Assembly: GCF_027947535.2 (NCBI RefSeq)
Contig: NZ_JAAGKO020000004.1
Location: 186,001-250,000, forward strand
Origin: Streptantibioticus silvisoli
GTDB lineage: Bacteria > Actinomycetota > Actinomycetes > Streptomycetales > Streptomycetaceae
Length of the DNA: 64,000 nucleotides
Direction: 5' to 3'
The notes below the pieces were generated by a model. The model did not search any database. It was not told the DNA's origin and worked only from the letters and a program-made list of their open reading frames with translations. Below, piece after piece: positions 23,017 through 53,087 of the stretch (position 1 is its first letter; each line of letters begins with the position of its first letter). The position numbers and the translations under genes were made by a program.

Positions 23017-24264
23017 GTGAAGGTCCTCGTAATCGGCGGTGGCGCCCGCGAACACGCCCTGTGCCGCGCTCTGTCCCTCGACCCCGGTGTGACGTCGCTG
23101 CACTGCGCCCCCGGCAACGCCGGCACGGCCCAGGTGGCCCAGTCGCACCCGGTCGACGCTCTCGACGGCACCGCGGTCGCCGCGCTCGCCACCCGGCTGG
23201 ACGCCGACCTGGTCGTGGTCGGCCCGGAGGCGCCGCTGGTCGCCGGGGTCGCCGACGCGGTCCGCTCGGTCGGCATCCCCTGCTTCGGCCCGTCGAAGGA
23301 GGCCGCCGAACTGGAGGGCTCCAAGGCGTTCGCCAAGGAGGTCATGGCGGCCGCCGGCGTCCCCACCGCGCGCAGCTACGTGTGCGTCACGCCCGAGGAG
23401 GCCGACGCCGCCCTCGACGCGTTCGGCCCGCCCTACGTCGTCAAGGACGACGGACTGGCGGCCGGCAAGGGCGTCGTGGTCACCGGCGACCTGCGCGAGG
23501 CGCGCGAGCACGCGGTGGCCTGCGGGCGCGTCGTCATCGAGGAGTTCCTCGACGGCCCCGAGGTCTCGCTGTTCGCGGTGACCGACGGCGTCACCGTGCT
23601 GCCGTTGCAGCCGGCCCAGGACTTCAAGCGCGCCCTCGACGCCGACCAGGGGCCCAACACCGGCGGCATGGGCGCCTACTCGCCGCTGCCGTGGAGCGAC
23701 CCCAAGCTGGTCGAGGAGGTGCTGGACAGCGTGCTCCAGCCCACCGTCGACGAACTGCGCCGCCGCGGCACCCCCTTCAGCGGCCTGCTGTACGCCGGGC
23801 TCGCGCTGACCTCGCGCGGCGTGCGGGTCATCGAGTTCAACGCCCGGTTCGGCGACCCGGAGACCCAGGTCGTGCTGGCCCGGCTCAGGACCCCGCTCGG
23901 CGGCCTGCTGCTGCACGCCGCCACCGGCCGCCTCGCCGACCACCCCGGCCTGCGCTGGAGCGACGGCTCGGCCGTCACCGTGGTCATCGCCTCGCACAAC
24001 TACCCCGGCACCCCGCGCACCGGCGACCCGATCGGCGGCCTGCCGGACGCCGCGGCCGACGAGCACACCTACGTCCACCACGCCGGCACCGCGCACGACG
24101 CCGACGGCCGGGTGGTCAGCGCCGGCGGCCGGGTGCTGTCGGTCACCGCGACCGGCCCGGACCTCACCACCGCCCGCGACCGCGCCTACGCCGGCGTCGG
24201 CCGGATCACCCTGGACGGCTCACACCACCGCACCGACATCGCCCGGGACGCCGCCCGCGGCTGA
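23017..24264 (+). CDS. purD: Phosphoribosylamine-glycine ligase (GAR synthetase)
   Basis: 415 residues, GTG 23017. It ligates glycine to phosphoribosylamine with ATP, step two of purine synthesis. ATP-grasp enzyme with the usual N-terminus [14 protein letters not shown], the [12 protein letters not shown] segment, [17 protein letters not shown] in the ATP-grasp core, [17 protein letters not shown], and [12 protein letters not shown] plus [12 protein letters not shown] at the active site. First of the purine cluster genes on this strand. Confidence 0.97.
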
Positions 24265-24589
24265 CCGGAGCAACCCCCGCCACCCCCGTGACCGGCGGCC
24301 CGACCCCGGTGTCCGCCCGCCCCCGGAGCGACTGCGCAGCGTGTTCGCCCGGTCGCCAGCCGTAGCCAAAGCCATTCAATCGGGTGAGCCCTTCCGCTAT
24401 CCGGCTGACGCGGCCCGCGACCCGAACTAGGGTGCCCGGCAAGTGGACTCCGGTGCCCCGGACGGATGTGTCCGGGGCACTGAGGCAACTGGCCCTCCCG
24501 GCATTGCGATGTCGGGAGCCTTTGCCACAGTGGGGGCATGAGCCAACGCCGTCGGCGTCCGCTGTCGTCTCAGCTGTATCAGCTTGGGG
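24265..24589. other. Intergenic region with hairpin and short leader ORF
   Basis: 325 bp after purD. A 10-bp hairpin (GTGCCCCGGA / TCCGGGGCAC, 24453-24480) probably ends purD transcription or serves the next gene's leader. A 24-codon frame opens at ATG 24538 behind GGGGG, encodes an Arg-rich start and overlaps the start of the next gene in another frame, ending at 24612. It could be a leader peptide or chance. The segment 24300-24440 shows nothing else. Confidence 0.45.
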
Positions 24590-30879: not shown

Positions 30880-30955
30880 TGGAGCGGACGACGGGATTCG
30901 AACCCGCGACCCTCACCTTGGCAAGGTGATGCTCTACCAACTGAGCCACGTCCGC
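30880..30955 (-). tRNA. tRNA-Gly (GCC)
   Basis: 76 nt including an encoded CCA (complement TGG at 30880-30882). On the minus strand it reads GCGGACGTGGCTCAGTTGG and onward, with perfect 7-bp acceptor stem GCGGACG/CGTCCGC, anticodon loop CTTGCCAAG giving GCC, and T-loop TTCGAAT. It is identical in sequence to the copy at 31107-31182. Confidence 0.97.
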
Positions 30956-31106: not shown

Positions 31107-31182
31107 TGGAGCGGACGACGGGATTCGAACCCGCGACCCTCACCTTGGCAAGGTGATGCTCTACCAACTGAGCCACGTCCGC
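31107..31182 (-). tRNA. tRNA-Gly (GCC), second copy
   Basis: 76 nt with encoded CCA, identical to the copy at 30880. The two copies are 227 bp apart with their terminators, so this is a tandem duplication of a tRNA-terminator unit. Confidence 0.97.
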
Positions 31183-31215
31183 ATTGCCTCCGAACGGCTT
31201 TCACCGTCCGGCGCG

Positions 31216-31258
31216 CTGGCTACTCTACCTGATCCGTTGGACCAGGTAGAACGGCCAG
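31216..31258 (-). terminator. Hairpin downstream of the aberrant tRNA-Gly(UCC)
   Basis: Two-part stem: CTGGC/GCCAG and TCTACCTG/CAGGTAGA, with an 11-nt loop, starting 4 bp after the 3' end of the tRNA-Gly(UCC) gene. Unlike the other two tRNA-Gly genes it has its own distinct sequence, which suggests that the upstream RNA is a separately terminated transcript. Confidence 0.65.
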
Positions 31259-31261
31259 TCG

Positions 31262-31333
31262 AGCGGGTGACAGGAATCGCACACTGCGCCTCCCCTTTGG
31301 AAAAGGGGCGCTCTACTACTGAGCTACACCCGC
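31262..31333 (-). tRNA. tRNA-Gly (UCC) with an aberrant D-loop and T-arm
   Basis: 72 nt, no encoded CCA. Acceptor stem GCGGGTG/CACCCGC, D-stem GCTC/GAGC and anticodon stem CCCCT/AGGGG are perfect; the loop TTTCCAA gives UCC. The D-loop AGTAGTA lacks the G18-G19 pair. The T-arm reads CAGTG-TGCGATT-CCTGT: the normal 5-bp T stem cannot form (only about 1-2 pairs) and T55 is G. Compensated stems elsewhere argue against random decay. Features recall non-proteinogenic tRNA-Gly used for cell-wall bridges in staphylococci. It could also be a pseudogene. Confidence 0.75.
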
Positions 31334-31440
31334 GCGGTCCGGTTGGCCCGGCCTTTCGGCCTTGCCCCTCGGCGTGTTCCAGACTCTAGCGGATCACCGG
31401 GGGCTGCTGTCCAATCGGCCGCTTCGACCGGCCGTCAGGC

Positions 31441-31758
31441 TCAACTCGCCGATTCGAAGGCCTCGTAGACCTTCTTGGGGATGCGGCCGCGCGGCGGCAC
31501 CTCCATGCCGTTGGACCGGGCCCAGGCGCGCACCGCGGCCGGGTCCGGCGCGACCGCGGTGCGCTGGAAGGTCTTGCCGGAGCGGCTGCGGCGGCGGCCG
31601 GCCTCCAGATAGGGACCGAGCGCGGCCCGCAGCTTGCCGGCGTTGTCGCTGGACAGATCGATCTCGTAGGCCTTGCCGTCAAGGCCGAACGCCACCGTCT
31701 CGGCGGCTTCGCCGCCGTCGATGTCGTCGGAGAGTGTGACCACCACGCGCTGCGCCAT
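31441..31758 (-). CDS. lsr2: Lsr2 nucleoid-associated protein
   Basis: 105 residues from ATG 31758 (AAAGGA upstream); a longer frame from 32211 is not supported. It silences AT-rich, often horizontally acquired DNA. N-terminal dimerisation domain MAQRVVVTLSDDIDGGEAAETV and Lsr2 core AYEIDLSSDNAGKLRAAL; C-terminal DNA-binding domain with AVRAWARSNGMEVPPRGRIPKKV, holding the RGR AT-hook-like motif (PPRGRIP). The upstream 300 bp are the most AT-rich part of this region, consistent with autoregulation. It is divergent from purSQL. Confidence 0.97.
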   Translation of the reverse strand: MAQRVVVTLSDDIDGGEAAETVAFGLDGKAYEIDLSSDNAGKLRAALGPYLEAGRRRSRSGKTFQRTAVAPDPAAVRAWARSNGMEVPPRGRIPKKVYEAFESAS

Positions 31759-44205: not shown

Positions 44206-44283
44206 TGGCGGTCCTGACGGGATTTGAACCCGCGGCCTTCACCTTGACAGGGTGACGAGCACTCCAAACTGCTCCACAGGACC
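44206..44283 (-). tRNA. tRNA-Asp (GTC)
   Basis: 78 nt with encoded CCA. Acceptor stem GGTCCTG/CAGGACC, anticodon loop CTGTCAA giving GTC, T-loop TTCAAAT. Its 3' part recurs as 21-nt fragments in the hairpin array just downstream. A second tRNA-Asp lies at 48627. Confidence 0.95.
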
Positions 44284-48544: not shown

Positions 48545-48548
48545 GCGG

Positions 48549-48622
48549 TGGCTGGGGCCGGGGTCGAACCGGCGACCTACCGCTTTTCAGGCGGTCGCTC
48601 GTACCAACTGAGCTACCCAGCC
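48549..48622 (-). tRNA. tRNA-Phe (GAA)
   Basis: 74 nt, no complete encoded CCA. Acceptor stem GGCTGGG/CCCAGCC, anticodon loop CTGAAAA giving GAA, T-loop TTCGACC. Last gene of a three-tRNA operon. Confidence 0.95.
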
Positions 48623-48626
48623 GCAG

Positions 48627-48701
48627 CGGTCCTGACGGGATTTGAACCCGCGGCCTCCACCTTGACAGGGTGGCGAGCACTCCAAACTGCTCCACAGGAC
48701 C
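48627..48701 (-). tRNA. tRNA-Asp (GTC), second copy
   Basis: 75 nt, nearly identical to the gene at 44206 (differences in the anticodon-stem/variable region) but without encoded CCA. Middle gene of the tRNA operon, 4 bp before tRNA-Phe. Confidence 0.95.
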
Positions 48702-48739
48702 AAGCTTTGTGCGAGACGAGTCTCGCACATGGTGTTGCG

Positions 48740-48812
48740 TACCCCCAACGGGATTCGAACCCGTGCTACCGCCTTGAAAGGGCGGCGTCCTGGGCCACTA
48801 GACGATGAGGGC
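48740..48812 (-). tRNA. tRNA-Glu (TTC)
   Basis: 73 nt, no encoded CCA. Acceptor GCCCTCA pairs with TGGGGGT (two G-U pairs), anticodon loop CTTTCAA giving TTC, T-loop TTCGAAT. First gene of the operon. Confidence 0.95.
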
Positions 48813-53011: not shown

Positions 53012-53087
53012 GGGCCATTAGCTCAACTGGCAGAGCAGTGGACTTTTAATCCATTGGTTCAGGGTTCGAGCCCCTGATGGCCCACCA
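53012..53087 (+). tRNA. tRNA-Lys (TTT)
   Basis: 76 nt with encoded CCA. Acceptor stem GGGCCAT/ATGGCCC, anticodon loop CTTTTAA giving TTT, T-loop TTCGAGC. A TATGCT -10-like element lies at 52998-53003, 9 bp before the gene. Convergent with the AEC transporter gene. Confidence 0.97.

Follow-up and report, generated by a model that had tools for sequence, protein, structure and literature searches.

Isoacceptors of tRNA-Gly that do not serve protein synthesis were reportedly described in Staphylococcus aureus by Giannouli et al. in 2009. The non-proteinogenic tRNA-Gly of S. aureus is marked by the T-stem pairs A51-U63 and A49-U65, which weaken binding to EF-Tu (PMC4052509; this and the other papers cited here by accession are represented by excerpts), and the T-stem pairs 49-65, 50-64 and 51-63 are those that set the affinity of a tRNA for EF-Tu (PMC11231383). 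EF-Tu also shields Gly-tRNA-Gly from D-aminoacyl-tRNA deacylase (PMC4880308), for which U73 is an antideterminant, and the glycine identity elements are G1-C72, C2-G71, C35, C36 and U73 (PMC9976931). FemX and VanK are named as users of aminoacyl-tRNA (PMC4052509); the enzyme that attaches a single glycine to each precursor in Streptomyces coelicolor is FemX, the corresponding step on D-Ala-D-Lac precursors being carried out by VanK (PMC4790382). How FemX-type enzymes obtain aminoacyl-tRNA that would otherwise enter protein synthesis is called somewhat unclear in most instances (PMC4052509).

The gene considered here (31262-31333, minus strand) lies in a 64-kb stretch of the Streptantibioticus silvisoli genome that was analysed as a whole and is called the window. 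It encodes an unusual form of tRNA-Gly(UCC), hereafter the odd tRNA, which is best read as an orthologue that the Streptomycetaceae inherit vertically as an additional tRNA-Gly(UCC). It is a conserved streptomycete tRNA of which no report was found in the open-licence literature.

Structure and constraint of the odd tRNA

The gene consists of 71 nt plus the discriminator U73 at position 31262, with CCA unencoded. The first-pass annotation, which gave no strand and suggested scoring the gene with a covariance model, was right that an unusual tRNA-Gly(UCC) is present: with cmscan the gene scores 56.5 bits against RF00005, compared to 73.4 bits for the adjoining tRNA-Gly(GCC) genes, and it scores 102.6 bits against a model of its own family (R1). 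ARAGORN reports seven tRNAs in the window, and the odd tRNA is not among them. The acceptor, D and anticodon stems are perfect, as had been claimed, both in the window and in the pair counts of relatives. The D-arm is GCUC-AGUAGUA-GAGC, the anticodon stem is CCCCU/AGGGG with the loop UUUCCAA, and the variable loop is AGGC; U33 and the anticodon UCC (31299-31301, minus strand), within the motif UUCCA, are invariant in the alignment.

The T-arm (31270-31287, minus strand) had been said to be incapable of pairing. Alignment to RF00005, pair counts and a register control instead place in it a stem of five pairs, GCAG[U]G / CCUGU, with a seven-nucleotide loop, UGCGAUU, and one extra U (31283, minus strand) bulged from the 5' strand between positions 52 and 53; the alignments agree on the bulge, which lies one place earlier in one relative (L065). 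With the bulge, 99.3% of T-stem cells are paired over 27 distinct sequences. The usual register without a bulge was rejected, with 40% of cells paired; a register shifted by one, in which a U/C mismatch replaces the bulge and the loop is shorter, has 80% paired and is allowed by pairing alone.

Counts at individual positions were taken from 53 distinct odd sequences, which represent 223 copies at 208 loci. Position 18 (31317, minus strand; assigned by alignment to RF00005) is A in 50/53 sequences where G is usual, and position 55 (31280, minus strand) is G where U is usual in the same 50; the other three sequences, which are the form found in genera g2 and g5, have G18 with U55, and no sequence mixes the two states. 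As g2 and g5 are sisters, the swap at 18/55 was probably a single evolutionary event. The supposed loss of G18-G19 therefore applies only to position 18, since G19 is retained in 53/53 sequences and its partner C56 is kept as well, and the supposed changes of conserved T-loop bases come down to position 55, the rest of the loop being usual.

Within the T-stem, pair 51-63 is A-U in all 53 sequences, compared to G51-C63 in the canonical tRNA-Gly genes read in six genomes; pair 50-64 is C-G in all 53, and pair 49-65 is G-U in 49 (including the gene in the window) and A-U in four. Pair 32-38 of the anticodon loop is always Watson-Crick (C-G in 33/53, U-A in 20/53), whereas 90 other tRNAs parsed from the same loci have C-G in none, U-A in 47, C-A in 26 and a mixture in the rest. 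The discriminator is U73 in 223/223 copies, and all of the glycine identity elements are invariant. Over 27 distinct sequences, 99.8% of stem cells are paired, falling to 48-59% in slid versions, and compensatory changes affecting both sides occur in 8 of 21 stem pairs, a number reached by none of 500 shuffles; the anticodon stem is among those upheld in this way. Conservation across the family with compensatory changes indicates that the odd tRNA is more than chance. Sequencing error was ruled out by the compensatory changes, by recurrence throughout the family and by the constancy of U73.

Distribution, neighbourhood and expression signals

The odd tRNA was read in 15 of 17 sampled genera of the family, with the same T-arm, so the conservation that the first-pass annotation had proposed to check extends nearly throughout; the two genera without it are designated g12 and g15, the latter being Kitasatospora if our guess is correct. 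The 50 loci read contain 58 copies; these fall into 28 distinct sequences, 27 odd (all of 71 nt, gapless) and one canonical. Of 200 family genomes searched at the DNA level, 158 had matches, and both of the matches in g15 that were read (L066, L067) are canonical tRNA-Gly(UCC). A pattern covering both forms of UCC tRNA, canonical and odd, has at least one match in each of 249 family genomes; among the matches listed, the g12 and g15 genomes have a single match each, as do six genomes of other genera. Four of these six (G042, G046, G066, G135) have a DNA-search match elsewhere in the genome, another (G137) is 71% complete, and the last (G027) is without a good PurQ match, for which reason the region of the locus is probably missing from its assembly.

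Outside the family, a strict pattern for the odd tRNA matched 0/384 genomes of the phylum (12/396 overall, all within the family) and model R1 at an E value of 1e-15 matched 0/268 genomes of the class (28/296 overall, all within the family), these being searches that would miss a strongly diverged analogue. Model R1 separates the two forms, with odd tRNAs at 89.6-102.6 bits (true members at about 90-104) and canonical ones at 70.8 bits or less. A scan of named genomes gave at least 118 stretches, and the 80 that were listed belong to Streptomyces, Streptacidiphilus or Actinacidiphila, apart from one labelled "Actinobacteria bacterium"; the family was therefore taken to be the Streptomycetaceae. 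Some loci carry two to four odd tRNA genes in tandem, such as the four at 5449-5860 of L137 and those of L077, L078, L079 and L247. Mobile elements were considered as a source and rejected. Among 50,697 phage records there was no close copy, and of the 14 with weak matches one is matched over the full length at 76% identity and the other 13, from Synechococcus phages, over half the length; among 72,556 plasmid records there were two weak matches and no close copy, the match in a Streptomyces plasmid scoring 52 bits with the family model, the level of an ordinary tRNA, versus about 90-104 bits for true members. A plasmid of Streptomyces sp. NBC_00637 (L252) has two tRNA-like genes, at 1228-1299 and 1499-1571, that are absent from its gene table, which lists no RNA genes.

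The usual site of the odd tRNA is between lsr2 and tRNA-Gly(GCC). In the window, the upstream open reading frame (31441-31758, minus strand), a conserved neighbour on the same strand, is presumably lsr2-like, a name given from its sequence and not from an annotation; the conserved downstream neighbour is a canonical tRNA-Gly(GCC) (31110-31182, minus strand; found by ARAGORN, RF00005 and the loci of relatives), followed by a second one (30883-30955, minus strand; ARAGORN and RF00005). Among the matches listed, 108 of 117 scan loci have an lsr2-like gene in the same orientation no more than 800 bp away, and most of the other nine are near the end of the locus. In the loci examined, the fixed neighbours are lsr2 and tRNA genes, and no cell-wall gene is linked to the odd tRNA. 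Elsewhere in the window, genes for tRNA-Phe, tRNA-Asp and tRNA-Glu form a cluster at 48547-48812 (minus strand); another tRNA-Asp gene is at 44206-44283, and a tRNA-Lys gene at 53012-53087.

Nineteen loci were anchored on PurQ. Ten of 11 from carrier genomes have the odd tRNA and lsr2, the remaining one (L254, of G010) showing neither, and all eight from g12 and g15 hold lsr2 and two tRNA-Gly(GCC) genes with no odd tRNA. Relatives with a normal T-arm at this locus, which the first-pass annotation had named as evidence against its proposal, were not found in these two genera: their site contains the tRNA-Gly(GCC) genes alone and no normal-armed UCC orthologue. In a weakly resolved PurQ-PurL tree, g12 joins four of five g15 rows (90/92) and g2 groups with g5 (96/93), but one g15 row is placed elsewhere, so that absence of the odd tRNA needs two changes; one loss in the common ancestor of g12 and g15 together with exchange of purine genes would explain the tree. 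PurQ-PurL of a g15 genome (L266, of G026) groups with other genera, suggesting exchange of the purine genes beside the locus. The only tRNA-Gly(UCC) of the g15 genomes read (G014, G152 and others; L286, L287) has the T-stem GCGAG/CUCGU, with A52-U62, instead of GCGGG/CCCGU, and the same A52-U62 pair occurs in the canonical tRNA-Gly(UCC) of g5, which has the odd tRNA.

Upstream of the odd tRNA is a promoter-like element conserved in relatives, TGGACA-N19-TAGAGT (31383-31413, minus strand), of which the -10-like TAGAGT ends 49 nt 5' of the gene. The conserved form is CCGAcTTGC....CaCCCC.g.TGATC.GCTA.aGT; of 162 distinct upstream regions, 106 have the pattern GATC-N2-3-TANNNT (0.2 expected from shuffles) and 107 a looser pattern of two boxes (0.1 expected). 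A scan of the locus for the sigma-70 consensus matched no promoter and no terminator. A similar GATCGGCTACGAT lies upstream of the canonical tRNA-Gly(UCC) of the same genome and is absent from the upstream regions of seven other tRNAs examined, for which the strand was assigned by a rough rule. Between the promoter-like element and the odd tRNA, a GGCC-GAAA-GGCC hairpin (31333-31380, minus strand; z -1.55) recurs in relatives.

The downstream hairpin (31214-31261, minus strand; -33.5 kcal/mol, z -3.72), identified by folding, a terminator scan and inspection of the sequence, has no T run. It need not be a terminator, because it contains the promoter-like GATCAGGTAGAGT upstream of the next tRNA gene, and the scan for hairpins with a T run gave nothing that would uphold the terminator once assigned to this gene. 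In relatives, 80 of 184 distinct downstream stretches were folded, and these fold only modestly better than shuffles (median z -1.7).

Charging, candidate users and rival explanations

The source genome (8.7 Mb in 130 contigs, with 62 RF00005 matches) encodes canonical tRNA-Gly with the anticodons UCC (L009), CCC (L011) and GCC (in the window, and also L004), and all three are likewise present in the carrier genomes read. Decoding of glycine codons is therefore independent of the odd gene. With the features for charging fixed, and with the 51-63 pair, the bulged T-stem and the closed anticodon loop pointing away from translation, the odd tRNA would suit the donation of glycine to a non-ribosomal enzyme. 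For a Gly-tRNA that EF-Tu leaves exposed, the invariant U73 would be more important; D-aminoacyl-tRNA deacylase is encoded in 61/61 genomes, which does not discriminate.

The explanation that we prefer, and hold evenly poised between right and wrong, is that the odd tRNA is functional, charged and kept off EF-Tu and the ribosome, and most likely feeds FemX. Transcription would start at the gene's own promoter, and glycyl-tRNA synthetase would charge the product; A51-U63, the bulged U and the altered contact of 18 with 55 would weaken the T-stem and lower binding to EF-Tu; and the Watson-Crick 32-38 pair, often C-G, would close the anticodon loop and disfavour decoding, the C32-G38 pair in particular being expected to hinder it. 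The free Gly-tRNA would thus be reserved for a non-ribosomal acceptor, most likely FemX (with VanK where present), adding the single glycine bridge to peptidoglycan precursors. Judged from sequence, the chance that supply of glycine to the cell wall is the function is about even. The more specific proposal of a dedicated cell-wall tRNA-Gly that arose in streptomycetes independently of the staphylococcal one, is kept from translation by the bulged T-stem, swapped 18/55 and C32-G38, and serves the glycine bridge via FemX and VanK is offered tentatively, at slightly less than an even chance; no earlier description of this combined architecture was found in the open-licence literature.

Of 81 family genomes, 80 have FemAB-family genes, which in the source genome lie beyond the window, at G000:C65:102210-103283 and 23761-24480. 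They are also present in g12 and g15, where the odd tRNA is absent, while a draft genome in 410 contigs (G021) has the odd tRNA and no FemAB match; therefore, the odd tRNA is neither required by FemX nor tied to it, and g12 and g15 may use a canonical Gly-tRNA for FemX. The first-pass comparison to the cell-wall tRNAs of staphylococci is thus upheld in part, by the constant A51-U63, the change at position 18 and the presence of the gene in addition to a complete canonical set, and weakened by the retention of G19, the rarity of A-U at 49-65 and the occurrence of FemAB in genera that lack the odd tRNA.

An elongator with an unusual T-arm, an isoacceptor for development or stress that decodes GGA and GGG under special conditions, is unlikely. 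The invariant UCC and U33 and the compensatory changes in the anticodon stem would suit it, but glycyl-tRNA synthetase also reads C35 and C36 (PMC9976931), so that conservation of the anticodon is not enough to show decoding; the genomes read already have a canonical tRNA-Gly(UCC), A51-U63 and the bulge weaken the face that meets EF-Tu in a tRNA for a weakly bound amino acid, and C32-G38 has no counterpart in the 90 other tRNAs. Quite unlikely, too, is donation of glycine to a different non-ribosomal enzyme, whether for lipid aminoacylation, for a FemX-like transferase of natural-product synthesis or for protein tagging. Natural-product clusters are strain-specific, whereas the odd tRNA is nearly family-wide, although Gly-tRNA-dependent enzymes of Streptomyces do include DhpK and Orf11 (PMC12945691). 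The wide occurrence of LPG-synthase domains (59 of 61 family genomes) would favour a lipid acceptor, but no LPG-synthase match was obtained in two carriers, G043 and G015 (the latter with the odd tRNA in duplicate), and g12 and g15 have the synthase without the odd tRNA; LPG synthase as a universal user is unsupported, being missing from those two carriers.

We consider it very unlikely that the odd tRNA is a regulatory tRNA-like RNA that acts by base pairing or on a sensor and donates no amino acid. Its fixed position after lsr2 is compatible with such a role, and deletion of tRNA-Other, which probably lies outside translation in Bacillus cereus, thins the cell wall and alters antibiotic resistance (PMC3399842), but the elements for glycine charging, all kept, would be superfluous in an uncharged RNA, and the stems vary by compensatory change, leaving no long fixed stretch for pairing except the T-arm. 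Decay into a pseudogene, which the first-pass annotation had allowed, is rejected: it would account for the silence of ARAGORN and the lowered Rfam score, but the bulge and the loop changes are shared by 15 genera, with compensated stems, an unvarying U73 and a conserved promoter-like element.

Comparison with known tRNAs

In the same genomes, canonical tRNA-Gly(UCC) (L009 and L289 among others) has the acceptor identity pairs, anticodon and U73 of the odd tRNA. It differs in its regular T-stem of five base pairs, which is GCGGG/CCCGU or, in some genera, GCGAG/CUCGU, in the combination of G18 and U55, and in C32-A38. A bulge is present in every odd sequence read, so that none has the bulge-free five-pair T-stem that, with G18 and U55, characterizes a canonical elongator. 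A tRNA so nearly family-wide can evidently escape a standard tRNA finder.

Like tRNA-Sec, in which the T-stem and acceptor pairs are tuned against EF-Tu (PMC11231383), the odd tRNA may owe its fate to its T-stem, but it has no long variable arm or extended acceptor stem and has a UCC anticodon, and the pairs G49-U65 and C50-G64, compared with the tRNA-Sec antideterminant, are also found in canonical streptomycete tRNA-Gly. The tRNA-Other of B. cereus is likewise a tRNA-like RNA of a Gram-positive bacterium that is probably outside translation, with a cell-wall phenotype on deletion; its anticodon is that of Trp, it is poorly charged (in vitro, with lysine) and its gene lies at the edge of a genomic island (PMC3399842), in contrast to the glycine identity and fixed chromosomal site of the streptomycete odd tRNA.

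The nearest likeness is to the non-proteinogenic tRNA-Gly of S. aureus, which is encoded by extra genes beside the decoding set, has A51-U63 in place of G51-C63 and a changed position 18, and belongs to a host whose Fem-type transferases put glycine in the wall (PMC4052509). G18 and G19 are reportedly both replaced there (by UU or CU); the streptomycete tRNA, by contrast, has a constant G19 and seldom has A49-U65, and it also differs in the bulged U of its T-stem, the change at position 55 and the invariably Watson-Crick 32-38. If the preferred reading is correct, the odd tRNA would become the second example of a dedicated tRNA, independent of the first, in an antibiotic-rich genus whose well-studied vancomycin resistance (VanK) needs a glycine bridge; the clade without it would be a natural experiment, and convergence of the two systems on the change at 51-63 would support a rule of EF-Tu evasion.
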